A DNA stretch of 64,000 bases from assembly GCA_947184155.2 (NCBI GenBank), contig CAMXCT020001081.1, positions 1 to 64,000 on the forward strand, read 5' to 3'. Positions 2,693 to 57,216 of the stretch are shown in pieces (position 1 is the first letter of the stretch; the number at the start of each line of letters is the position of its first letter). Position numbers and translations under genes: made by a program. The DNA comes from Cladocopium goreaui. Taxonomy: Eukaryota; Sar; Dinophyceae; Suessiales; Symbiodiniaceae. The notes beneath the pieces were generated by a model, which was given only the letters and a program-made list of their open reading frames with translations, was not told the DNA's origin and made no database searches.

Positions 2693-2959
2693 ATGGCCAC
2701 CCGGAGCTGTGGCTTGGGCGAGGCGGTGGCAGCTGCCTCCAAGACCTGCGCGGTGCATCGAGAGGCCTACGATCGGTGCTTCATCCAGTGGTATCGCTCC
2801 AGTTTCCTCAGTGGCGACTTATCCAGTGACAGTGATCCGTGTCGAGAAAAATTCGACACTTATCGCGGTTGCGTTCTGAAGGAACTCAGGGAGCAAGGTG
2901 TGGAAAAAATTGCCCATTTTGAATACAATGCAACTCCGGAGCGTGAGTTTGATGCCTAG
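2693..2959 (+). CDS. TRIAP1/Mdm35-like twin CX9C mitochondrial protein
   Basis: An 88-residue frame from ATG 2693 to TAG 2957-2959. Two CX9C pairs are exact: C19/C29 and C50/C60. The intervening sequence YDRCFIQWYRSSFLSGD and the following DPCREKF...YRGCVLKEL match the TRIAP1/Mdm35 pattern closely. These small proteins fold by Mia40-dependent disulphide formation in the mitochondrial intermembrane space and partner PRELI/Ups proteins to carry phosphatidic acid between membranes. Length fits the family (about 75-90 residues). An in-frame start exists at 2600, but the extra residues do not look conserved, so 2693 is preferred. The end overlaps the next gene by 8 bp in another frame. A GTGAGT at 2943 could instead splice this frame into the next gene (see findings). 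Confidence 0.85.
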   Translation: MATRSCGLGEAVAAASKTCAVHREAYDRCFIQWYRSSFLSGDLSSDSDPCREKFDTYRGCVLKELREQGVEKIAHFEYNATPEREFDA

Positions 2960-4952
2960 CGCATGTTGTGTCGCCGTGGCTCTGACTTGCTGTTTGATGT
3001 TTGCCCGGGCAGATATTTTGGAAGACTGGATCTACCCTTTAGAAGCTGATGTGTTTTTTGCTGGAACTTTTGAAAAACAATGGTCGCATTTTCCCCACAA
3101 CAAATCCCTTGTTCCCATCACCTTGGAACACGTGGCAGATTGGTTGGAAAGCCAGGGCCGAGACGAGGAGGTCATAGAGACACTTGAGCATCCAGTGACA
3201 CAGAAGGCTTTTCGATCCGACAACCCCAGTCCAGTGCAATATATCCAGGAAGCATTTTTACAGGGTCATTCAATGGTGATCAATTCTTTAAACCGATGGT
3301 CTGAACCTGGAAAAAGGGTAGCCAAAGACTTAAATGCAGCTGCGGATCTACCTGTGGATGTCTACATGTATTTAACTCCACCACATTCGCAAAGCTATGG
3401 GATGCATTCAGATGTCATGGATGCGTTCATGGTTCAACTGGGTGGTTCCAAATCTTGGAAGGTCTGTGACGTGACTAGTTGGATGGCACCGCGTGAAAGA
3501 TACGACCAGCTGCCACTGAAACTGAATGGAACGTGTGAGGAGGTCCTAATGCAACAAGGTGATGTGATGTATTTACCTTATGGCACCTTACACCAAGCAA
3601 GTACATCTTCTGACTATTCCATGCACTTGACGGTCAACATTGAGAGGCAGTACTATGTTTGGTTGGCGCTGATTTTTGCGATGATTCACAAAGTTGCGAA
3701 ACCCGACCTGACCATCGAAGCGTTCCTTGCCAGCAACGAGTTTGCCCCTGATGATGAAGAGAACGACCTCTACCGGCTGATGCTCACGGTGTCCTCATCG
3801 CTCCCACTGATGCATCGCCTGCCTGGCGGCGGCCAAGTGGGAAGGTCCTCCAGGTTGCTGCTGACTCCATTGTGCAACGAGGATCTACCAGCTGAGTATC
3901 TTCCCAGCGTGAAATCGCAATTGAAGGAGTTGCTGACATCTTTGCTGACGATTCTGCCTGAGCATGGGCCAATGGAGGTGTTGTTGGATGGTCGCAGGAT
4001 GCCGATGTTGAAGCTGGTGAAACAGCTTCAGAAGAAGTCAGAGGACTTACTTCCTTGGGCTCTCCAACTGGCACGTGTCCATTCCATCAAACATGCTGGG
4101 CTGCAACTGCAGAAACCTCACCTGTTTGAGTCCTTATCTTCAGCAAGAAAGTTGCATCATGAGCTTTTTACACGTGCAAAACTGGACGATTTCCCTGCAA
4201 AGATCTCAGGGAAAGCGTCATTTGTGCGCAGATCCGCTTTGCGCGCCGTGTTGCTGGATGATGTGATCCCAGCCAGGTTGATTATGAACAACCAGGTGGG
4301 GATTGGCCAAAATTGTCCAACCACCAAGAGATGAGTTAAATTTCCAGACTTGGCTAACATTTTGTGGGCCCATTGGTGCCAAATTTGGGTTTGTCTAGAC
4401 ATGAATGAGTTGTACCGTACCCCAAAGTTGTCATATCTCGATAAGAGTTATAGATGAGAATGGGTTGTGCTATGCCGTTAGTATACCCCTAAATTGTCAT
4501 ATTTAAATGGCCAGCATAGGGCTTTAAGCCACTCAAGTTCGGACTTGACGCATTTCACTACTACGTTCCGTTTATCTTCATTGCCCGTCGTGTCAACCCT
4601 TTTACAAAGGTTTTGCCCTCTGGCAGTTTAACATAGCTATGAACAATGGCCCATTTATCGATCATATACCTACTTAAAATGATCATTGTCTATAGCAAAC
4701 TGTTAAATTACCAGAAGGTATATCCCAGTTATATCTGCGTTATATAAATCCCCAAAGAAAACAACGTTGGCCGAGGTGCTTCCTGTGACTCCACAGCAGC
4801 TCTCAGCAGTCCGCTATTGTCTGGGCCTCTACAGCGAGCTGTCTGCGCAGGGGCGACCCTTTCGGCTGATGGAGGTGGAACGACTGGGCCAAAGCGCCAT
4901 TCAGCTACTGCATCAGCTGATTTTGAGCGGGGCAGTGGAAGTCATTGCTTAA
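2952..4952 (+). CDS. JmjC oxygenase of the NO66/MINA (ribosomal oxygenase) type, two exons
   Basis: Exon 1 is 2952-4295 and exon 2 is 4758-4952, joined by a phase-0 GT-AG intron; the product is 512 residues. The JmjC (Cupin_4) core shows YGMHSDVMDAFMVQLGG, with Fe ligands H152 and D154, and GDVMYLPYGTLHQA, with the third ligand H214. Exon 2 supplies a winged-helix-like tail (QLSAVRYCLGLY...VERLGQSAIQLLHQLI), as in ribosomal oxygenases, which hydroxylate ribosomal proteins with 2-oxoglutarate and Fe(II). If the start is 2952, the N-terminus reads as a signal peptide (hydrophobic run, then ARA before DILEDW), which is odd for this family. Alternative starts are 2928 and 2898, or joining to the upstream gene through a 70-bp intron (2943-3012). 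Substrate specificity cannot be read from the sequence. Confidence 0.85.
4615..4720. mobile_element. MITE family 1 copy, inside the JmjC intron
   Basis: A foldback element with ends CCCTCTGG(C)AGTTTAACATAG and the inverse CTGTTAAATTACCAGAAGG. It shares its terminal sequence with copies at 6122, 26005, 33717 and 35453. It has no coding capacity. Confidence 0.7.
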
Positions 4953-21727: not shown

Positions 21728-22015
21728 CAGCAACTACGGCTCAGCAACTACGGCTCAGCAACCACGGCTCAGCAACCACGGCTCAGCAACCACGGCTCAG
21801 CAACCACGGCTCAGCAACCACGGCTCAGCAACCACGGCTCAGCAACCACGGCTCAGCAACCAAACTAGGTTCTCGCTTCAGCAACTACGCTTCAGCAACT
21901 ACGCTTCAGCAACTACGCTTCAGCAACCAAAACTAACTCTCGCTTCAGCAACTACGGCTCAGCAACCAAAATCTACTCTCGCTTCAGCAACCAAACCTCA
22001 GCAACCAAAACCCAC
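21728..22015 (+). repeat. 14-bp tandem array (CAGCAACCACGGCT)
   Basis: About ten near-identical 14-bp units to 21870, then degenerate units (CAGCAACTACGCTT and variants) to about 22015. Translated, the array gives an SNHGSATTAQQPRL-like repeat, which is an artefact of the array. Confidence 0.9.
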
Positions 22016-22020
22016 CTCCT

Positions 22021-23487
22021 CTGGCAAGTACATGCACAGTCTCATCTTACACATCATATCAAAATCCCACCCCCTCTGGCAACTACATGCACAGTCTCAT
22101 CTTCCACGTCATATCAAAATCCCACCCCCTCTGGCAAGTACATGCACAGTCTCATCTTACACGTAATCTCAAAATCCCACCCCCTCTGGCAAGTACATGC
22201 ACAGTCTCATCTTCCACGTCATATCAAAATCCCACCCCCTGTGGCAAGTACGTGCACAGTCTAATCTTACACATCATATCAAAACCCCACCCCCTCTGGC
22301 AACTACATGCACAGTCTCATCTTCCACGTCATATCAAAATCCCACCCCCTCTGGCAAGTACATGCACATTCTCATCTTACACATCATATCAAAATCCCAC
22401 CCCCTCTGGCAAGTACATGCACAGTCTCATCTTACACATCATATCAAAATCCCACCCCCTCTGGCAACTACATGCACAGTCTCATCTTCCACGTAATATC
22501 ATAATCCCACCCCCTCTGGCAAGTACATGCACAGTCTCATCTTACACGTAATCTCAAAATCCCACCCCCTCTGGCAAGTACATGCACAGTCTCATCTTAC
22601 ACGTCATATCAAAATCCCACCCCCTGTGGCAAGTACATGCACAGTCTCACCTTACACGTCATATCAAAATCCCACCCCCTCTGGCAAGTACATGCACAGT
22701 CTCATCTTACACATCATATCAAAATCCCACCCCCTCTGGCAAGTACATGCACAGTCTCATCTTACACATCATATCAAAATCCCACCCCCTCTGGCAACTA
22801 CATGCACAGTCTCATCTTCCACGTCATATCAAAATCCCACCCCCTCTGGCAAGTACATGCACAGTCTCATCTTACACGTAATCTCAAAATCCCACCCCCT
22901 CTGGCAAGTACATGCACAGTCTCATCTTACACGTCATATCAAAATCCCACCCCCTCTGGCAAGTACATGCACACGTCTCACCTTACACGTCATATCAAAA
23001 TCCCACCCCCTCTGGCAATTACAAGCACAGCCACATTTTACACGTCATATCAAAATCCCACCCCCTCTGGCAAGTACATGCACAGTCTCATCTTACACAT
23101 CATATCAAAATCCCACCCCCTCTGGCAACTACATGCACGGTCTCATCTTCCACGTCATATCAAAATCCCACCCCCTCTGGCAAGTACATGCACAGTCTCA
23201 TCTTACACGTAATCTCAAAATCCCACCCCCTCTGGCAAGTACATGCACAGTCTCATCTTACACGTCATATCAAAATCCCACCCCCTGTGGCAAGTACATG
23301 CACAGTCTCACCTTACACGTCATATCAAAATCCCACCCCCTCTGGCAATTACAAGCACAGCCACATTTTACACGTCATATCAAAATCCCACCCCCTCTGG
23401 CAAGTACATGCACATTCTCATCTTCCACGTCATATCAAAATCCCACCCCCTCTGGCAAGTACATGCACAGTCTCATCTTACACATCA
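22021..23487 (+). repeat. 55-bp satellite, about 26 units
   Basis: The unit begins CTGGCAAGTACATGCACAGT and ends CAAAATCCCACCCCCT. Spacing is 55 bp throughout, apart from one inserted base near 22971. Variant units (TTACACAT, TTCCACGT, TAATCTC, GTGGCAAG, ATTACAAGCACAGCC) recur in the same order, so a higher-order repeat of several units is superimposed. The unit length is not a multiple of three and it holds no stop in any forward frame, so long open frames run through it. Confidence 0.95.
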
Positions 23488-23950
23488 TCGAAGGAAGTTT
23501 AGAAGTCAAACTTCCGACAATATGGACAGATTAGGCAGAGAGAAGAGAAAGATTAGAAGAGAGAAGATCAGAAGAGAAAGAGTCAGAAGAAAGAAGATGC
23601 AGGTGCGCGAAAAGGTAGGAAAGTCGCGAACACTGTGTTTTTTGGTGGTTTTGTGGCTCCGGAGGGTTGAAAAGTAGGCTCGCTAAAGCGGCGGATGCGG
23701 AGACATCTGGGGAGATGAGAGATGAACAATTGCACGCCGTTGTGGCGCGAAGCACATTTCGAAGTCAAAATGTACAAAACAGACCAGGTCCGGACCACTT
23801 TTGGCAGTTGAGATGTCGAAAAAGTGCACGCCGTTGTGGCGCGAAGCACATGTTGAAGTCAACATGTACAAAACACACCAGGTCCGGACCATTTTTGGCA
23901 GTTGAGATGTCGAAAAAGTGCACGCCGTTGTGGCGCGAAGCATAGTTGAC
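23488..23950 (+). repeat. Dispersed repeat, copy A (inverted partner at 43925-44420)
   Basis: Starts ATCGAAGG...TAGAAGTCAAA...TTCCGACA, runs through a purine-rich tract and GAGGGTTGAAAAGTAGGCTC, then about two tandem units of roughly 93 bp containing GTGCACGCCGTTGTGGCGCG. The same order of landmarks is present on the minus strand at 43925-44420. Confidence 0.85.
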
Positions 23951-26885: not shown

Positions 26886-27659
26886 GAAGCTACCAGTAGC
26901 GACTGCGCTTGTGGAGTTTTGGCGTCGCTGGACCACCCTAAATCGAGCGTTCTAACAGGGAGCGACCGTCACTCCCTGTTAGAACACTCACTACCGGTAG
27001 CGACTGCGCTTGTGGAGTTTTGGCGTCGCTGGACCACCCTAAATCGAGCGTTCTAACAGGGAGCGACCGTCACTCCCTGTTAGAACACTCACTACCGGTA
27101 GCGACTGCACTTGTGGAGTTTTGGAGTCGCTGGACCACCCTAAATCTTACGTTCTTCTCAGTACAACCCCAGCGAAAACACAAGATGATCCTTGGGTCGA
27201 TGATTCCGGTGGCACCCTTAGAACACTCACTACCGGTAGCGAGCGTTCTAACAGGGAGCGACCGTCACTCCCTGTTAGAACACTCACTACCGGTAGCGAG
27301 CGTTCTAGTGGAGTTTTTCCGTCGCTGGGGCACCATCAATCTTGCGTTCTTCTCACTAAGACCCCGGCGAAAACACAAGATCATCCCTGGGTCGATGTTT
27401 CCCAACCCTCCCTTAGAACACTCACTACCGGTAGCGAGCGTTCTAACAGGGAGCGACCGTCACTCCCTGTTAGAACACTATTTATCTTAATAGCACAATT
27501 TTTTTATACATTTTTGAATCCCCAAATCACTACCGGTAGTGAGCGTTCTAAGGGCTCCACATTAACAGAATTCCCAATTCACTACCGGTAGTGAGCGTTC
27601 TAAGGGCTCCCCATTGACAGAATTCCCAATTCACTACCGGTAGCGAGCGTTCTAAGGGC
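26886..27659 (+). repeat. Tandem array with ACTACCGGTAGC palindromes (left part)
   Basis: Units built from CACTACCGGTAGCGAGCGTTCTAA, at first about 100 bp long and joined to GGAGTTTTGGCGTCGCTGGACC, later shorter and joined to GGGCTCCCCATTGACAGAATTCCC. Four units carry a perfect hairpin (26949-26985, 27050-27086, 27245-27281, 27440-27476). The array resumes at 29436 after the inserted element. Confidence 0.9.
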
Positions 27660-27684
27660 CCCAGAAGTTCCGTTCTTCGTTAAT

Positions 27685-27772
27685 TAAGATTAAGCAAGGT
27701 TAGCCTTAAATTATTTAAGCAAGGTTAGCTTAATTAAGGATAAGCAAGGTTGCTTAAATTAAGCAAGGTTAA
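27685..27772. repeat. Left subterminal repeats of the element
   Basis: Four to five copies of TAAGCAAGGTTAGCTTAA or its core (T)AAGCAAGGTT within 90 bp of the left terminus, in direct orientation. Equivalent motifs lie at 29205-29400 in both orientations. Confidence 0.85.
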
Positions 27773-27774
27773 AT

Positions 27775-28249
27775 TTGGATGGTGATATGTTTTGTTTTTT
27801 GTGTTTATTGGCCGGACTATTTGGATTTATGTTGGGTGATCATAATTACTTTGTTGAGGTTATAGTAGTTGAGTTGCTAGCGTGTTTCATGGAAAAGATG
27901 GAGTGGATGTGGGGGAGTGTTTTCGAAATAGAGTCATGGAATCTTTTGGAGTGTGTACCATATTAAAGTTTGTTTCTTTGGAAACGAGGAACATGAGAAA
28001 GTTAATGACTTTCTGCTAGGATGGCAGCATTGGAAAATAGTGATTGGATATGCGTGTATATTGGCTCGTATCACGGAAAGAGGTGTACCCTTTCCGGCCG
28101 CAAAGAGGCTTGCCCTTTGCGGCGGTGAAGAGGCTTGCCCTTTGCCTGGTGAAGAGTTTTGCCCTTTGTGTAGGGGAAGGGCATTGCCATTTAGATTTAT
28201 TAGGTCTAATCTTTTCTTAGATCGTGTTCCCAAACAAAATACTTTCTGA
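27775..28249 (+). CDS. Two overlapping small frames inside the element
   Basis: 27775-27966 encodes 63 residues with a hydrophobic segment (MFCFLCLLAGLFGFMLGDHN), possibly a membrane span. 27953-28249 encodes 98 residues and contains a repeated segment translated from GGCTTGCCCTTTGC units (28105-28175). They overlap by 14 bp. Either could be an exon of a longer gene or spurious; neither resembles a transposase. Confidence 0.3.
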
Positions 28250-28560
28250 TTTTGATTTATTTTTGTTTTTTTTTTGTATCTTATTTTTCCTTTTCCTACA
28301 AATTTCTCTGTTTGCGTTAAAAGTTCGATTTTTTTCCTTTTCTTTCATGTTTAAAAAAAAGATGAAAAAATAGGTTTTATAATGTTTAAAAATCTTATTT
28401 TTTTAAAAAAATAGGAATTTTTAAAATTTTTATTTTTTATTTTTTATTTTTTTTTTAATTTTTAAAAATTCTTACTATATATATATATATATAATGATTT
28501 TTTATTTTTTAAAAAAAATTAAAAAAAATAAAAAAAATAGAAAATTTTTAAAAAAATAAA
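28250..28560. other. Extremely AT-rich spacer inside the element
   Basis: Long A and T runs with hardly any G or C, just before the F-box-like gene. It may act as its promoter region; no specific site is identifiable. Confidence 0.6.
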
Positions 28561-28636
28561 AATTTTGAAAATTTCCTTTTTTGTCTCTAAGAAGAAAAAT
28601 ACATGTGTTTGTTGCAACAGTTCAAAGAAGGATTGC

Positions 28637-29086
28637 ATGCACTTCGGCTGCCATTGCAGCCGTTTTTGCCATTTGGTTTCTTTGCGTTTGGCGGCTTGTC
28701 CCCTTCATTTGATAGAGGCGTACCCTATCCGTATCAGCCGTGCCATGTGTGACGAAATTTTGTCTTTCTTACCCTTAACCTCCTTGTATCAGATGCGAAG
28801 CATCAATAGAGCAACATGCCGCACCATTGAGTACATGGACGAATTTGTCAACAAATATTCCGAAGCTTTGTTGCTCTTAAATAAAGCACCGTCGCCCATG
28901 ATCGAAATCGAAGAAGATCTAGATCTTGAAGCTGAAGCAGTTCTACAAAAAGAACAAGCAGCCGAAGAGGAACGAAGAGCACGAGCCCGTAGCCGCTCGA
29001 GAAAAAGACAAGAGAAGAAACATGACGAATTCCTGCGACGACGAAATGGACGCTATAAAAGCTTTTCCGAGTCTTCTTACTCCTAG
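28637..29086 (+). CDS. F-box-like protein carried by the element
   Basis: An intronless frame of 149 residues from ATG 28637 to TAG 29086 (open upstream to 28565). Residues 1-25 are Cys/His-rich. Residues 30-65 (YPIRISRAMCDEILSFLPLT then SLYQMRSINRATCRTIEY) fit the F-box: conserved I/L-P-L core and a downstream R...NR...C in place of V..RW. Residues 90-112 are acidic and 113-149 are Arg/Ser-rich, like a nuclear localisation region. F-box proteins bind Skp1 and select targets for ubiquitination by SCF ligases. Codon use is AT-rich, unlike host exons. Other helical domains could mimic this pattern. Confidence 0.55.
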   Translation: MHFGCHCSRFCHLVSLRLAACPLHLIEAYPIRISRAMCDEILSFLPLTSLYQMRSINRATCRTIEYMDEFVNKYSEALLLLNKAPSPMIEIEEDLDLEAEAVLQKEQAAEEERRARARSRSRKRQEKKHDEFLRRRNGRYKSFSESSYS

Positions 29087-29435
29087 AGGCATTGCTCTAG
29101 ACATGTCGCGGCTTGCCCCAACCAAACCTCAATCACAGACGACAGGCTTCAAAACAAAAAAAAGCCGCTGATCAAAAAAAACAAAAAAATTAACCGAGGT
29201 AAAAAAACAAAAACCTTGCTTAAATTTAAGCAAGGTTGCTTAAATAAGCTAACCTTGCTTAAAAAACGCAACCTCTCTTAATAAAAGTCGTTAATTAAAG
29301 ACTTTTACCTTAATTAACAAAGGTTTTCTCTTAATTAACGTAAAAGTCGTTAATTAAGGAAGGTTATAATAAGCAAGGTTAGCTTAAATAAGCAAGGTTT
29401 CATTTAATTATTAACGAAGAACGGAACTTCTGGGG

Positions 29436-29965
29436 CTCCCCATTGACAAAATTCCCAATTCACTACCGGTAGCGAGCGTTCTAAAGGTTCCCAATTCACT
29501 ACCGGTAGCGAGCGTTCTAAGGGTTTCCAATTAAGGGTTTCCAATTCACTATACCGGTAGCGAGCGTTGTAAGGGTTTCCAAGTAAGGGTTTCCAATTAA
29601 GGGTTTCCAATTCACTACCGGTAGCGAGCGTTCTAGGGGTTCCCAATTCACTACCGCTAGCGAGCATTCTAAGAGTTCCCAATTCACTACCGCTAGCGAG
29701 CGGTCTAAGGGTTCCCAATTCACTACCGGTAGCGAGCGTTCTAAGGGTTCCCAATTCACTATCGGGAGCGAGCGTTCTAAGAGTTCCCAATTCACGACCG
29801 GTAGCGAGCGTTCTAAGGGTTTCCATTCACTACCGGTAGCGAGCGTTCTAAGGATTCTCAATTCACTATCGGTAGCGCGTGTTTTAAGGGACCCAATTCA
29901 CTACCGCTAGCGAGCGTTCTAAGATGTTCTAAGGGTGCCCAATTCAGACCAGTAGTGAATGTTGG
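29436..29965 (+). repeat. Tandem array with ACTACCGGTAGC palindromes (right part)
   Basis: About twelve units of CACTACCGGTAGCGAGCGTT then CTAAGGGTTCCCAATT, 34-45 bp long, with point variants (ACCGCTAGC, ATCGGTAGC). Same orientation as the left part, so the two are one array split by the element. Confidence 0.9.
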
Positions 29966-45524: not shown

Positions 45525-48500
45525 ATGCCAAAAGTGAAGCCTGACCAAAACCGCATCAATCTTTTGAAGGCAGGGTTGCTGAAAAGACAGGCAAGCCTCC
45601 CCAAGATCTAGGAACCCATTGCCCCTACGACTTCAGGACTTCTATGCCGAGTACTTGAAAGGTGACCCAAAGTCAGAGGGAGACTACCGGACCCAGCGGT
45701 TCGTTGAGTTGGCTCTCAAGGATGGGATCTGTGAGAAAAAGGCAAAGAGGGCCCTGAACAGTGGCAAGGTGTTCCCAACTAGTTTTATATTTGTTCAGTT
45801 GGCTCAATGTTCCAATTTTTCCCAGTTCAACTTTCATCGCCAGATTCCAGTGGAGTTTACCTTCTTGGATATCCATGAGCGCAAGGGGCTCAATGAAGAC
45901 ATGGCATCCCCGGCCTTCTTGTTTTGGTGATGCATGTGTTGCTTCCTCCTCACGCCTGCAAACAGCAACGTGCGGCCAGATTCAGTGTGATGTCAACACG
46001 CAGTTCGCTTTGGCATGGTTGCCTTCGTTTGCACTCGACCCACCAACAGCACTGGAAGTGAAGGCAGGGTTAGTATTAAAATGAGCAAATTGATCCAATG
46101 CGGCATGTACTACTAGGATCTAAGTTACACACACACCAGGTTCCAATCTATGCACCATAATGTCCACTGCAGGAAGCTTTGGCAACCATCGCAGTGAAGT
46201 ACAAGCTAGTTGAACAGACAGAAATCAGTGAAGAAGTTCAGGACAGGGGGCGGTGGAGTGTTGCAACAATGAATGAACCCACTGAATCCCAGTCGTGACA
46301 ATTACTATTTTGTGGTTTACTTGATCCCCAGCTCCCTGTTCCTGGCCTCCATGGAGTCTTGGAGGATTGGGCAGCAACAGAAGGGAACCTTCACAGGATT
46401 TTGGCAAGCAAGATTTTGAGCAGCCACGGCCGTACTACAAATGCAAGGCCGGGACTCTGATAATCCCCAGGGTATCAACCGATGGCTATATGGTTCTTGA
46501 TTCGTGCGGTACCCATTTCGATGCGCATCTGCGTATATCACCACATTGGTCAGGAGAAAGGATTGCAACATGTCAAAGCTGAAAAAACTTGTGTCCATGA
46601 TCTATGAGGACAGGTTCACACATTCCAGCCCCAATCCAATGGATATAAATCAACCTAGGATATATGATATATTGATCTATCTAGGATCTATCTAGGATCT
46701 ATCTAGGATCTATCCATTACAGCCCCAACTATCTAGGATCTATCCATAACAGCCCCAATTGGCATGCCAATTGGATATAAAACCAAGAAAAAATGACATA
46801 TGTTTTTCTTCACCGCAATGGTGTAGGAGAATGGCATTGAGAAGAGAACACGCTCGATCCGACATCCAGCCCTGAAGGCATTGCATGTCGACATACCGAC
46901 ATACCATCTCGATCTCAGCATTATTACTTTCAGCCTGGTTTTCTCATGTCTTCTCCAATACTGGCTCAAAACCTCGGGGAAAAGCAGTGGCAGGTGAAAG
47001 GGAAAGAAGAAAAGCCAAAGGAAGAGGACCTGCAGAAGGAAGCTGAAGAAGAGTTGGTCGAAGAGATTGTTATAGTTGAGGAGGAAGAGGAGGAGGAAGC
47101 ATTTAGTGAGGATGAGGTTATTGAGGAAGAAACAAAGATGGAGGAGTTGGCAAAGAAGAAGAAAGGAGAAAATCTCGAGAAAGCTGAGGAGACACGAGAG
47201 ATGGAGGAGTTGGCAAAGAAGAAGGCCGAAGAAGATCTCAAGAAAGCAGAGGAGAGCCGGCAGATGGAGGAGTTGGCAAAGAAGAAGGCCGAAGAAGATC
47301 TCAAGAAAGCAGAGGAGACCCGGCAGATGGAGGAGTTGGCAGAGAAGAAGAAAGAAGAAGATCTCAAGAAAGCTGAGGAGACACGAAAGATGGAGGAGTT
47401 GGCAAAGAAGAAGGCCGAAGAAGATCACAAGAAAGCAGAGGAGACCCGATGGCTTGAAGAGGAGCTGCTAAAGAAGAAGGCAGAAGAAGAGCAGAAGAAA
47501 ACTGAGACTCGACTGCTGGAAGAGGAGTTGGCAAAGAGGAAAGAAGCAATGAAGAAACGGGATGAGATGGAGAAGATGGAAGCTTTGCAGGCTGAAAGAA
47601 AGAAGGAGGCCGAGTTGGAGAAAGCAGAGAAGAAAAGACAACTTGCGGAGTGGAAGTTGGAGGTGGCAAAGGCAGCAAAAGCAGCTGAAATGATCAAGGC
47701 AAGACTCAAGGAGATGGAAAAAGAGGAAGCTGAGGAGAGGTGTCCAAAAAGAAAAGCAGAAGACTGCCAGAGCATGCAAAGCAAGAAGAGCACTACAGAA
47801 GGCACCAATGAGAAGAAAACCAGCGACCTTGGTGAAGAGGAAGCAGAGGATTTAGATGCCGAAAGTGATTTGGACCCCACTGCGCAGAACAAGCGCTTGA
47901 AGGAGAAAGGCGTCTTCCACGACACAAAACCCTTGTTTGAGAAACTGCCTGACTTGAAGACCCTGGATCAGGAGCAAGAAAACAGAGATCGCATGGACCA
48001 CTTGCTGGAGGAGCAGAAGAACTTGAGGCAGAAGGAGAGAACAGCCAAGAAGGAAGCAAGTGGCAAGGGTAAAGGAAAAGGAAGGGGAAGGGGAAGAGGA
48101 CGCAAGGCCAAGGAGGCTGAGGACGTTAAAGAGGATGATGCAGTTGCAGAGGACGCTGACCCGGAGTTAGATTACGAAATGGAAGCAGTGGACAAAGACA
48201 TGAGAATGGAGAGGGACCTTGGACTGGTGGACGGTGACAAGCCTGCAAAGGCAGCCAAGAAGAAGAGGAAAACTGGTGATGCCGAAGGGAAAGACAAGCC
48301 CTTGGAAAGCGGCCAAAGCGCCCCAAGCGATGTGAAGCCCAAGCGCAGGCGACTCAAAGACAAGGACAACAAGCAGCAAGAGACCAAGAACCACGAGGCT
48401 GCCAAAGAACAGGAGCCAAAGAAGGAAGACACAAAGAAGGAGGAAAAGGCAGAATCCAAAGACAAGACGGAGGAGACCCTTGGAAGCTGGGGGAGTATGG

Positions 48501-50034
48501 GATCTGTACTATGGCATTCTCGGGTTTTTAGCTCCATAAAATGGAGACTGGCTAAGGATTCAAAAACGCATGGACCATGCAACCATGGCACCCAGAGGTT
48601 CAGCATTCAAAAGCAGCTGACCAACAATCTAGATAGATCTCCAAGCGATATGCAGTTAGATAGGTGAACTACGCATCAGCAGCAGTATCCCCGAAGCAGG
48701 TTGTTTATTTCATCTTCAGGGTTAGTAGCTTCCAATGGTCTCTGTTATCAGGAATTAGTTCACGGTCTTCGGCAAGAGCTCTGGTAGTGACTGGTAGTGT
48801 TGTACCACTACTTCTTCATGCTTTTGGAAACAATCTATACTTCAATATTTGTATCAAATTTATATATATCAAATATATTATATGTCAATATTCATATTTG
48901 GGGCGCTTACACAATCTTTACAGCCGGCCATGGCCAGGAGCCACCTCACTCTTCCGAACCGCATCAGGATTGGAACCAGGGAAGGGGGCAGTTCAAGACT
49001 TGAATTCAGTTCAGGGATTCAATTTGTTTTGTCAAGGCAAACCAAATCATTCTCAAAACGCCATTCCTGATTTCCCCTGACCCCATGCATGGTTTCTAGA
49101 TGGGAAAGGAGCCCGGATCGAAAGCGGAAAAGGCAAAGGCTTACAGAAAGGACTGGGAATGACCGGGAAGAATCTTTCACGTGAATCTTAATTGAATGAA
49201 TCCTACGGGCTTAATAAGGCTTAATATTCAAACAGAATCAAGATCCTAGTAGCAACTTGTCAACCCTCACAAACCCAAGCTGCCACTGCCTTGTTTTGCA
49301 GGAAGTCCGAGACAAGAACATTGCCAACGTCCGGAAGCTTGCCTCACTGGATCTGGGATACCAGCTTCCAAGTGAGAAGAAACTGGCTGATGGGATGCCG
49401 GGGCCTTTTTGGAATCAAACCTCACTATCTATTTTTGGTATAATTATTGTTATTTGATTATCATTCGTTTTTTCAATGCTAGGTCATGGACTCAACATCC
49501 TTCTGCAGACCTTCTTGGAAAGGACTTGGCTGAGTCAAACGAGACTGTGGCCATCATGACAGTGTTCCTGGATTCAACTTGGTTTGATTGAAATGTACAA
49601 CACCAATGGTAGCACCACCTGTAGGCTTTCGGGGTCCTTCTATGTCACTAAGCCTCATGCCGTGCTGCTGGAAGCTACCAACAAGAAATTCGATAAGGAG
49701 CTGAAGGCTACATCAAATAAATTCAGCACCAGTTGAGTTTTCAATCACTCGGTACTCCAGTCATTGCTTGGGAAATCTTTGGCAGGCGAACTCCAAGGAT
49801 GGTGTGACCATTACTTGGGGAGTTCATGGTGGCATTGTGGCTGCGTCTTGGCCCCAGATCATGGATTCTTCCCAGGCCCATCTACTTTTATATGATAGTG
49901 ATGTAGCTATATTATAATCATAATTATATTGATCCATCATTTATAAATATATATTTTCTATTTCTTAGCTGACCAACACTGCTGCCATCCAATCCTTGGC
50001 ACCCAAGCGGTCTTTGCAGCCAAACCTCGCTCAG
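45525..50034 (+). CDS. Lys/Glu-rich coiled-coil protein, multi-exon
   Basis: Exon 1, 45525-45590, starts MPKVKPDQNRINLLKAGLLK and ends at a GC donor. After a 46-nt intron, exon 2 (45637-45768) reads DFYAEYLKGDPKSEGDYRTQ and continues RFVELALKDGICEKKAKRAL. Then 45844-45926 (IPVEFTFLDIHERKGLNEDM), 46173 to about 46290 (EALATIAVKYKLVEQTEISE), and a long exon 46992-48494 with about five 21-residue coiled-coil units (ELAKKKAEEDLKKAEETRQ), a GKGKGKGRGRGRGRK segment and further Lys/Glu-rich sequence. Later exons: about 49100-49160 (SKAEKAKAYRKDWE), 49302-49403 (EVRDKNIANVRKLASLDLGY), about 49630-49732, 49786-49875 (ANSKDGVTITWGVHGGIVAA) and 49969-50034. Exons 1-3 and the last two agree in phase. Lineage-specific; function unknown, and it may be more than one gene. 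Confidence 0.6.
46676..46748. repeat. 11-bp tandem repeat (TATCTAGGATC)
   Basis: About five units in the intron before the long coiled-coil exon. Confidence 0.85.
47135..47465 (+). repeat. 63-bp coding repeats in the coiled-coil exon
   Basis: Five near-identical units containing GAAGAAGATCTCAAGAAAGC and GAGGAGTTGGCAAAGAAG, one per 21-residue protein repeat. The same unit recurs at 55430-56510. Confidence 0.9.
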
Positions 50035-54199: not shown

Positions 54200-56738
54200 G
54201 CCCCTAAGCACTGCTTTGGGATGGAGAAGGACCTTCAGGTTTTTTTGGCAAAGGCCAAACTCAGGAAAGCTCGGGTTCTAGCAGTGGCAAGTCCATCATC
54301 CGAGCCCAGTGGCACTTTGGTGGACCGCCAACCTACCTTGGAATATGAAGCGTGCTACTGGCTGTATTTGTTTTGTTCACTCCATCAGATCTTAATACAA
54401 CATGTCGTTCACGGGATGCCCTTCACTGGTGGCCAGGAAATCCCCAAGCAATCACAGTGAAGCTAGTGAGGTTGCTGTGCCGAGTTCGCCAGGCCAGGTC
54501 CATTCATTTTGAGACTATATCCCAAGTACTGTCTCCCTATAACTCTTCTATCAGTATCCTTTGTCTTGGGTGAAAACAGTATCACATTGATGGATGCATT
54601 GATCCTTGGTGCCTCTAAGTAGTATATTAGGAGTATAAAGTTTCTTAAACCTTTAAGTAGTATATTCCCTCGGGTTTTTATTCCTTTCCCATCCAAGTGC
54701 TGCAGGCCTTGAAGCTGCATCTTTGATGCCTTGCAAGAGAATCGTTGTGAAGAAGATTATCGGAAAGAAACGAGCTAAAGAACCTTCAAAGGGAGAGGAA
54801 CGCCACATGACCCCTGAGTATGATATGGGTGGATATAGCCAGTGGCGTGAAACTGCTTGGCAAGATTATGGCCAGAGTTGGAGATGGCCCCCCTACAGCG
54901 ATTGGACACCATCAGACTATGGCTCTGGTGGATGGAGGAATCCTGACTATGAAGCCTCTGAACCAGCATCAACCTCAAAACAATCAACCGCTTCTACTGT
55001 CTTGAGTCTGAGTAGGGCCTCTACCCAGGAGATCCTAGACATCCAAGATGATCTACGCAGGTGCAACACTGGTGACCAACTGCAAGCCACATTCAATGAG
55101 AAGTTGGATGCAGTTGCTGACCAAAAAGACAAGGGGACCGAAGGAGACGTAGAGATGACTAGGAAGAAAATGGCAGAGATGAAGCTACAGGAGTTGCAGA
55201 AGCGTATTGAGCAGGAAGAGCAAGAAATGGAGCTGACAAAGAAGAAAGCCGAAGATCTCAAGAAAGCAGAAAGGGAAGAGACCCGAAAGATGGAGGAGGC
55301 GTTGGAAGCAAAGAGGGCAGAAGCAGCTATGAAGGAAGCACAGGCCCAAGAGATTCTAGCAAGGCTGACACAGAAGAACGCAGAAGAGGAGCTCAAGAAA
55401 GCAGAAGAGACACAAAAGATGGAGGAGGAGTTGGCAAATAAGAAGGAAGAAGATCTCAAGAAAGCTGAGGAGACACGAAAGATGAAGGAGTTGGCAAAGA
55501 AGGAAGAAGAAGATCTCAAGAAAGCAGAGAAGACCAGGCAGATGGAGGAGTTGGCAAAGAAGAAGGCTGAAGAAGATCTCAAGAAGGCAGAGGAGATCCG
55601 GCAGATGGAGGAGTTGGCAAAGAAGAAGGCTGAAGAAGATCTCAAGAAGGCAGAGGAGACCCGGCAGATGGAGGAGTTGGCAAAGAAGAAGGCTGAAGAA
55701 GATCTCAAGAAGGCAGAGGAGACCCGGCAGATTGAGGAGTTGGCAAAGAAAAAGAAAGAAGAAGATCTCAAGAAAGCAGAGGAGACCCGGCAGATGGAGG
55801 AGTTGGCAAAGAAGGAAGAAGAAGATCTCAAGAAAGCAGAGGAGACACGAAAGCTAGATGAGGAGTTGGCAGAGAAGAAGGCCGAAGAAGATCTCAAGAA
55901 AGCAGAGGAGACCCGGCAGATGGAGGAGTTGGCAAAGAAGGAAGAAGAAGATCTCAAGAAAGCAGAGGAGAGCCGGCAGATGGAGGAGTTGGCAAAGAAG
56001 AAGGCTGACGAAGATCTCAAGAAGGCAGAGGAGAGCCGGCAGATGGAGGAGTTGGCAAAGAAGAAGGCTGAAGAAGATCTCAAGAAGGCAGAGGAGACCC
56101 GGCAGATGGAGGAGGAAATGGCAAAGAAAAAGGCTGAAGAAGATCTCAAGAAAGCAGAGGAGACACGAAAGCTAGATGAGGAGTTGGCAAAGAACAAGGC
56201 CGAAGAAGATCTCAAGAAGGCAGAGGAGACCCGGCAGATGGAGGAGTTGGCAAAGAAAAAGAAAGAAGAAGATCTCAAGAAAGCAGAGGAGACCCGGCAG
56301 ATGGAGGAGTTGGCAAAGAAGAAGGCTGAAGAAGATCTCAAGAAGGCAGAGGAGACCCGGCAGATGGAGGAGTTGGCAAAGAAAAAGGCTGAAGAAGATC
56401 TCAAGAAGGCAGAGGAGACCCGGCAGATTGAGGAGTTGGCAAAGAAAAAGAAAGAAGAAGATCTCAAGAAAGCAGAGGAGACACGAAAGCTAGATGAGGA
56501 GTTGGCAAAGAAGGCAAAAGAACTGGAGGAACTGAAGAAAAAAGCCAAGCAGGCCCGTGAGGAGCTGGCAGTGGCAGAGAGGAGACAGGATAATACACCG
56601 GAGGATTCCCAGACCAGGACAGAGGCTACAAAGGAGGAAGGGACACAGGGGGAACCGTTGACCCATGAGGACGAGGAAAGAGAGAGGAAACGCCTTGACG
56701 CCCATGCAAGGTACATGAGATACTTCCGCAACATCCGG
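54200..56738 (+). CDS. Lys/Glu-rich coiled-coil protein, second locus
   Basis: A first exon at about 54200-54310 (MEKDLQVFLAKAKLRKARVL) leads to a long exon, open from 54723 to 56792. That exon starts with basic and W/Y-rich sequence (YSQWRETAWQDYGQSWRWPP), passes a helical region, then about 17 units of a 21-residue coiled coil (ELAKKKAEEDLKKAEETRQ, at protein level roughly 230-610), and ends RLDAHARYMRYFRNIRS. A GA donor at about 56739 (CATCCG then GAGTCT) would join it to the exon at 57217. The coil predicts a long rod; with RDAHARYMR-type tails this arrangement belongs, from memory, to a large uncharacterised Symbiodiniaceae family. Repeats share DNA identity with 47135-47465. It may be continuous with the methyltransferase-like exons upstream and the domains downstream. 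Confidence 0.65.
55430..56510 (+). repeat. 63-bp coding repeats, about 17 units
   Basis: Units carry GCTGAAGAAGATCTCAAGAAGGC and GAGACCCGGCAGATGGAGG with few differences, and length variants lacking one Lys codon. Near-identity between units points to recent duplication or gene conversion. Confidence 0.9.
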
Positions 56739-57216
56739 AGTCTGATCCCCAAAGAAAAACCAGCTTTGCATATCTTTGCATTCAAAACTTAAACGGTATC
56801 ATCAATTAAGGAAAACGTCTTTGATTACTTTTTGGAGTCCAATGACCTTTAGATTGTTCCGGTCCATGACTGCCCAGATCCGAGCACCCCGATCGAGCTG
56901 AGAAAAATGGGCAGGGAAGCCCACGGGAGTCCCTTTGATCAAATTTCAGCTGAACAGTACTTCGATCAAGATTTTTAAAAGCTAGCAATGGAGTTTCCCA
57001 GATTTCCCAGATTTCCCAGCCTCTGGTTTTCCTCCAGGATCAACAAATGGTGGCTTTCTGGATCCTGCGTCAGCCACATGGGTAAAATTGGTCAATCTGA
57101 TATCACTGATATCCCTTTTCTGTTTGGATAGATTTGGTCCCCAAACCACAACATTGCATATTTATTAAGCCTAGATGGGTTCCATTGTTTATCTTAGTTT
57201 CAACCCTTGGCCCACC

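Follow-up and report, generated by a model that had tools for sequence, protein, structure and literature searches.

A terminal-inverted-repeat element of Cladocopium goreaui, probably derived by internal deletion from a five-gene DNA transposon family with a predicted RAG1/Transib-type transposase

RAG1 is the enzyme that rearranges vertebrate antibody genes. Among DNA transposons, Transib elements duplicate 5 bp of target DNA, Tc1/mariner elements duplicate TA, and subterminal repeats are known in CACTA elements. The main text of a review of dinoflagellate genomics (PMC11453091) uses 'DNA transposon' once and 'transposase' not at all. The subject here is a 1,775-bp element at positions 27660–29434 of a 64,000-nucleotide stretch of the dinoflagellate Cladocopium goreaui (contig CAMXCT020001081.1, positions 1–64,000, hereafter the window). 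It is proposed, with a probability of roughly 0.85, that this element belongs to a multi-gene DNA transposon family, as a non-autonomous copy that has undergone internal deletion. The full element would be ~9 kb long, with CCC...GGG ends and five genes on one strand, the fourth of which (open reading frame 4, ORF4) would encode a DDE transposase with a RAG1/Transib fold. This proposal is based on exact-ended copies, 2-bp target duplications, long relatives and the conservation of five ORFs, together with a fold prediction in which the DDE residues and part of the zinc-site motifs are present. An earlier interpretation made from the letters of the window (the sequence-only reading) had labelled the element unclassified; that label can be replaced by deletion derivative of a five-gene family whose transposase has a predicted RAG1/Transib fold.

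A repeat finder paired positions 27658–27684 with 29410–29436 as 27-nt arms that are 100% complementary, and the window has two occurrences of the 26-mer CCCCAGAAGTTCCGTTCTTCGTTAAT (≤3 mismatches), compared with none in 100 shuffles. The inverted termini are perfect, as the sequence-only reading had stated, but they are 25 bp rather than 26 bp long, because the outer GC on both sides, which is its own reverse complement, belongs to the target duplication. The left repeat, CCCAGAAGTTCCGTTCTTCGTTAAT, occupies 27660–27684 (+ strand) and the right repeat 29410–29434 (− strand). They are flanked by a GC at 27658–27659, where the end position is set by other copies, and by a second GC at 29435–29436, placed by junction comparison. 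The element splits one unit of a CACTACCGGTAGC array. This host tandem array, with a 52-bp unit, runs over 27516–27659 and resumes at 29435–29923, mostly as 36-bp units. The empty site is legible in the adjoining unit at 27589–27625, which reads TTCTAAGGGCTCCCCATTGACAGAATTC; both flanks joined, minus one GC, read TTCTAAGGGCTCCCCATTGACAAAATTC, in agreement with the clean insertion originally described. A 0-bp duplication with CCCC ends would be equally compatible with the window copy alone and is excluded by the other copies. Beside the array, at 26890–27479, lie 101-bp and 195-bp tandem repeats with a near-perfect hairpin (GTTCTAACAGGGAGCGACCGTCACTCCCTGTTAGAAC).

The AT-rich composition noted previously is borne out, with ~34.5% GC in the element and 45.0% in the remaining window. 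Subterminal AAGCAAGGTTAG repeats (≤2 mismatches) are present four times on the left in one orientation (27691–27773, + strand) and six times on the right in both orientations (29210–29402). The window copy and copies L002–L005 all have 4 on the left and 5–6 on the right, against an expectation of 0.13 matches per base-shuffled element. No transposase had been recognised among the frames of the element, and Pfam scans of two frames likewise gave no significant match, the remaining frames being short. Rfam returned 0 matches, and a search of the window for the spliced-leader 21-mer was negative.

The genome searched comprises 1,165,616,438 bases in 6,202 contigs. When it was queried with 27650–29445 as DNA, at least 129 stretches matched, 40 of 55 candidates having been scored. 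Besides that of the window, four copies are near full length. All four begin at query position 11 (27660); three stop at 1785 (29434) and one at 1790, where inspection places the end at the same base. The element coordinates given earlier are thereby base-exact. Furthermore, many copies with the same termini exist, and their homology stops at those termini. For a 28-nt end pattern, the genome has 29 matches (≤3 mismatches), and for its reversed control none.

Both junctions were compared in 19 complete, non-duplicate copies, 18 of them 303–9,052 bp long and one extending over 69.9 kb. An exact 2-bp duplication flanks 16 of the 19 copies and a 3-bp duplication none (0/19). The duplicated dinucleotides (n = 16) are TA and TT (four each), TG (three), AA (two), and GC, GT and CA. 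Correspondingly, the non-TA duplication of 2 bp claimed for the window copy holds, with its ends set by other copies and its dinucleotide differing among them. The sequence-only reading had taken 2-bp duplications to be known for few superfamilies, mainly Tc1/mariner (TA), and GC to be unusual; lineages of the CACTA/EnSpm-Mirage-Chapaev-Transib (CMCT) clade make duplications of 2–5 bp, according to the accessible portion of PMC12730594, so that 2 bp is less exceptional than first thought. CCCAG begins 18/19 copies (L039 has CACAG), and CTGGG ends 19/19. Left out of the census were L024, which repeats the insertion of L025 in reverse orientation on another contig, and several repeat views, namely L008/L018 of L036, L015–L017 of L011, L014 and L013, L027 of L020, and L019, L021, L023, L026, L029 and L030 of L037–L040. 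Loci at which one end or none was found were also omitted (L007/L031, L009/L034, L012/L035, L022/L041, L028/L042, L043–L045 and L048). The census row for contig C1181 combines L010/L032 with L006/L033.

Contig C1148 (L060, minus strand) holds a 9,052-bp copy that is bounded by CCCAG/CTGGG, flanked by a TG duplication, and carries five ORFs, all on the same strand. From stop to stop, ORF1–ORF5 measure 365, 470, 382, 559 and 142 aa; from the ATG, ORF4 has 555 aa and ORF5 102 aa. An AT-rich spacer separates ORF2 and ORF3; the window copy, too, has an extremely AT-rich spacer, at 28350–28550 (4–8% GC). C1148 represents a sister subfamily, as its two ends show 7 and 8 differences from the window-type end over 28 positions.

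Comparison with other long copies locates two internal deletions in the window element. L032, L034 and L035 have element positions 1–529 (L032 and L034 in overlapping pieces) and then run into coding sequence. L031 (contig C764) aligns to element positions 757–841 and 944–1044, continues with 5,154 bp of extra sequence, and then aligns to 1052–1775. The first deletion zone lies approximately at 28188–28416, between the point where left homology to the long copies stops (~element position 529) and the point where that of L031 resumes (757); C1148 carries ORF1–ORF2 in the matching interval. The second deletion junction, at element positions 1044–1052 (28703–28711), is where the 5,154 bp of L031 hold ORF3 and an interrupted ORF4. 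Within that ORF4 gene sits an unrelated 1,151-bp terminal-inverted-repeat element (L031:4827–5977; 20.9% GC; ends CTAAGAC/GTCTTAG), in which 54/60 terminal positions are complementary and whose uninterrupted state is given by colinear alignment with C1181 only. CT stands at either side of it, and this is therefore probably another 2-bp duplication.

On C1181, a left end at 3665 and a right end at 73565 lie in one tandem array, and their flanks form one unit with a TA duplication. A functional 70-kb giant element (C1181:3665–73565, 69.9 kb) was considered and rejected, as there are four insertion sites, each without the insert in L035 or L031. In comparison with L035 and L031, the native aligned blocks of C1181 total ~8.7 kb. 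Most of the interval (L032, L050–L055, L033) is thus inserted DNA at these four sites, which has swollen a ~9-kb copy to 69.9 kb, and one of its inserts carries a 1,448-aa ORF that resembles a copia-type polyprotein by eye. Large, mutually similar ORFs in inserted DNA, also noted by eye, are found at L034:3856–5577 (−) and L051:2373–4577 (−); they may be other transposases, and the one that was scanned gave no Pfam match.

ORF1–ORF5 of C1148 are 43, 46, 44, 56 and 44% identical to their counterparts in L032, L035, L031, L031 and L033, respectively, over 233, 280, 381, 371 and 102 aligned residues (for ORF4, the C-terminal two thirds only). In these five comparisons, the proportion of synonymous differences (pS) is 0.74–0.87, which is near saturation, and that of nonsynonymous differences (pN) is 0.32–0.43. 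The pattern looks like that expected of purifying selection on five genes, with saturation barring a proper ratio.

The long copies bear on two further explanations. The ends might be a pair like those of miniature inverted-repeat transposable elements, derived from an unrelated superfamily (ISL2EU/Harbinger, Tc1/mariner or Merlin), and the five-gene copies might share them by nesting or capture. Duplications of 2 bp do occur outside the RAG1/Transib group, as in the TA of Tc1/mariner, and related ends are also found on small copies of 303 bp (L024/L025). However, the duplication in this family is not confined to TA, the five-gene copy C1148 is itself bounded by CCCAG/CTGGG with a 2-bp duplication, and the 1.65–1.8 kb copies are colinear with the long copies in their left part, ORF5 and right part; an origin of this kind is accordingly considered highly improbable. 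Likewise, several genes between inverted repeats and a very AT-rich spacer could recall the remnant of an integrated double-stranded DNA virus or a Polinton-like element. Against that origin, 9 kb is short for Polintons, which are typically longer. ORF1, ORF2, ORF4 and ORF5 of C1148 have no Pfam family and ORF3 has two matches of E > 1 only, so no capsid, polymerase or ATPase model is represented. Moreover, 0 of 204 structure matches of ORF4 in BFVD reach E ≤ 0.001, and viral contigs contain neither a relative of ORF5 nor an exact match to the end motif, in collections that may omit records near the genome of the window. A viral or Polinton-like source is thus the least credible of the readings.

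The predicted fold of ORF4 matches RAG1/Transib over residues 14–555. In an alignment of transposase rows (A2, with column counts over rows that have a letter there), the predicted catalytic columns are D153 (8/8), D252 (11/12) and E517 (12/13). Between the second D and the last E is a C(2)C motif, with C272 in 11/12 and C275 in 12/12 rows, so that ORF4 displays the DDE plus C(2)C arrangement of CMCT enzymes. The first H of an H(3–4)H motif before the last E is present in 12/12 rows. Pfam scans of 14 A2 rows gave no match but two of E 0.12 and 0.18, in one row each. Transposase_21 (PF02992) was absent among the matches of these rows, and a genome search for it found 0, as it did in the control genomes. 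A PDB sequence search with ORF4 returned no chain below E 1. Relatives of the transposase form at least about a hundred matching stretches in the genome, the remoter ones mostly at 28–40% identity; examples at 33–37% lie at C291:638548 and C846:633577. As the scanned rows lack a significant Pfam domain, domain-based annotation pipelines would tend to miss them. A public 556-aa open protein (P0019) is 89% identical to L031 ORF4. Another protein, P0044 (eukprot, 732 aa), combines an ORF3-like part, an N-terminal part of ORF4 and, by eye, a tyrosine-recombinase-like stretch, and may be a chimera or a gene-model fusion. For ORF2, a KH-like domain was a by-eye cue only, with no match in Pfam or by PDB sequence, and is not claimed.

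The enzyme could alternatively be a divergent true CACTA/EnSpm (or Plavaka) transposase and the family an ordinary CACTA family, with RAG1/Transib ranking first for want of a CACTA structure in the PDB, where we know of none. The C(2)C...H(3–4)H layout is common to CACTA, Plavaka, Transib and RAG1, and 2-bp duplications with subterminal repeats would suit CACTA/Plavaka-type elements, PlavakaA itself making 2-bp duplications (PMC12730594, accessible portion). The near-complete lack of Pfam matches among the 14 rows argues against this assignment, as do the CCC..GGG ends, which are unlike CAC..GTG, TGT..ACA and CATCA..TGATG in the same portion of that source. On balance, a CACTA/EnSpm or Plavaka identity appears unlikely but deserves real weight.

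ORF5 (28745–29086, + strand; 113 aa, MCDEILSFLPLTSLYQMRS...) is the sole gene of the long element retained in the window copy, and is predicted to be helical with an arginine-rich C-terminal half. A search with 112 residues (first Met omitted) found 18 homologues, the weakest at E 7.8e-10, and the largest cluster has 62 members. ORF5 is open in all five 1.65–1.78-kb copies, partial in L036, L011, L013 and L014, and was not seen in seven other copies examined (L020, L025, L037–L040 and L046). Between the nearer subfamilies (the window copy and L002–L005 compared with L031 and L033), the ratio of nonsynonymous to synonymous substitution (dN/dS) is 0.30–0.56. No relatives were found in prokaryotic genome collections either, to which the limit given above for viral records applies equally. 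An F-box, suggested by the by-eye cue MFDEILSFLPL, was not supported: Pfam listed 14 families over 19 rows, with no F-box among them, the model consists of long helices with a predicted TM-score (pTM) of 0.30, and Foldseek gave 0 matches against the PDB. Retention of ORF5 may reflect an aid to mobility in cis, or chance sparing by the deletions.

In the proposed mechanism, a full copy would supply ORF4, with or without ORF1–3 and ORF5. ORF4 would recognise and bind the CCCAG ends or the subterminal repeats and excise the element through double-strand cleavage, and insertion would use a 2-bp staggered cut and show little preference for sequence. Window-type copies would have lost ORF1–ORF4 through internal deletions and be mobilised in trans. 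Both the chemistry of the enzyme and what the other four proteins would do are offered as a proposal only.

Several observations weigh against a deletion derivative of a RAG1/Transib-type family. Three of the 19 complete copies (L038, L039 and L047) have no 2-bp duplication. C1148, the open long copy, comes from a sister subfamily; its ORF4 shares 56% identity with the L031 protein, and its AAGCAAGGTTAG repeats number one on the left and none on the right. Damage is present in the nearer long copies, with insertions at four places and frameshifts (seen by eye) in C1181 and one insertion in L031; the left end of L031 was not found in 18 kb of sequence, and an intact partner of the exact subfamily of the window copy was not located in the assembly. 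Foldseek TM-scores of ORF4 to RAG1/Transib are moderate (0.30–0.53 on the query), with a whole-chain root-mean-square deviation of 8–13. The second zinc-motif position (H+4) is E in 11/13 A2 rows, H in one (P0027) and A in one. Within the subfamily of the window copy, ORF5 differences are too few to show constraint. Overall, the support consists of sequences and a predicted fold.

A broader proposal, to which we give slightly less than even odds, is that the family represents an undescribed superfamily-level lineage of dinoflagellate RAG1/Transib-fold transposons. Such a lineage would be characterised by CCC..GGG ends, sequence-free 2-bp duplications and five co-conserved genes forming a multi-protein machinery, with ORF5 kept by otherwise empty copies through a cis-preferred role in mobility. 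Searches of open-licence papers returned no title or abstract opening that describes the family, which is not proof of its being unpublished.

If the assignment is correct, an anonymous AT-rich repeat can be placed in a defined transposon family, and the abundance of transposase stretches in one genome would mean that a RAG1-type enzyme is common in a group of protists only distantly related to animals. The many dinoflagellate relatives of such a RAG1/Transib-type enzyme would bear on where ancestors of the antibody recombinase occur. The 2-bp stagger, compared with the 5 bp of Transib, would be a natural variant for studying how RAG-type enzymes set the target cut. With a full-length relative supplied, tests can address ends, duplication and enzyme at once.

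Elsewhere in the window, 22006–23488 contains a 55-bp tandem repeat (27 copies, 93% matches) that is strongly C-rich on the + strand (GC skew −0.57 in 22001–23000). Two ORFs, at 46841–48667 and 54657–56792, are made of a 63-bp repeat (KKAEEDLKKAEETRQMEELA), and the opposite strand also has long open frames. Coding stretches are found at 378–971, where a UvrD-helicase C-terminus is fused to a DnaJ domain, and at 2880–4334, for a JmjC/cupin protein. In a search for the dinoflagellate/viral nucleoprotein DVNP (PF19060), 34 matches in the genome exceeded the curated cut-off, against none in the control genomes (0/14), which agrees with a dinoflagellate host. The genes are clustered on C1225, C2942, C618 and C5952; on C1225, for example, two groups spaced at ~1 kb make up 11 matches.

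Among known systems, the Transib/RAG1 core (HzTransib, BbRAGL, and mouse and zebrafish RAG1) is alike in fold to the ORF4 model, whereas the family departs from Transib in duplicating 2 bp in place of 5 bp. It further differs from Transib/RAG1 in its CCC..GGG ends, in having E for the second zinc histidine in most rows, and in four further genes, none of which is recognised as RAG2-like. Tc1/mariner is set apart by its TA duplication, seen in only 4/16 copies here. The introner-like elements of Amoebophrya are also dinoflagellate inverted-repeat elements (PMC7789003, accessible portion). They are introns, however, with 8–20 nt inverted and 3–5 nt direct repeat motifs (PMC11453091, accessible portion), whereas the present family carries genes, spans 1.8–9 kb and makes 2-bp duplications, and the window copy sits in an array.

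The CMCT group (EnSpm/CACTA, Mirage, Chapaev, Plavaka, ESTA and Lanisha) shares with the family duplications in the 2–5 bp range and the C(2)C between the last two catalytic residues, as far as the accessible portion of PMC12730594 describes it, and the comparisons that follow are with that same portion. The 5′-CA..TG-3′ termini found in most, but not all, CMCT cases differ from CCCAG..CTGGG, as do the CAC..GTG ends of EnSpm/CACTA and the TGT..ACA (PlavakaA) or CATCA..TGATG (PlavakaB) ends of Plavaka. ESTA has likewise been linked to RAG1 through remote comparison (HHpred), but it was described from fungi and makes TA duplications, whereas the present family accepts at least seven dinucleotides. 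The family is filed as a new lineage within or beside CMCT.
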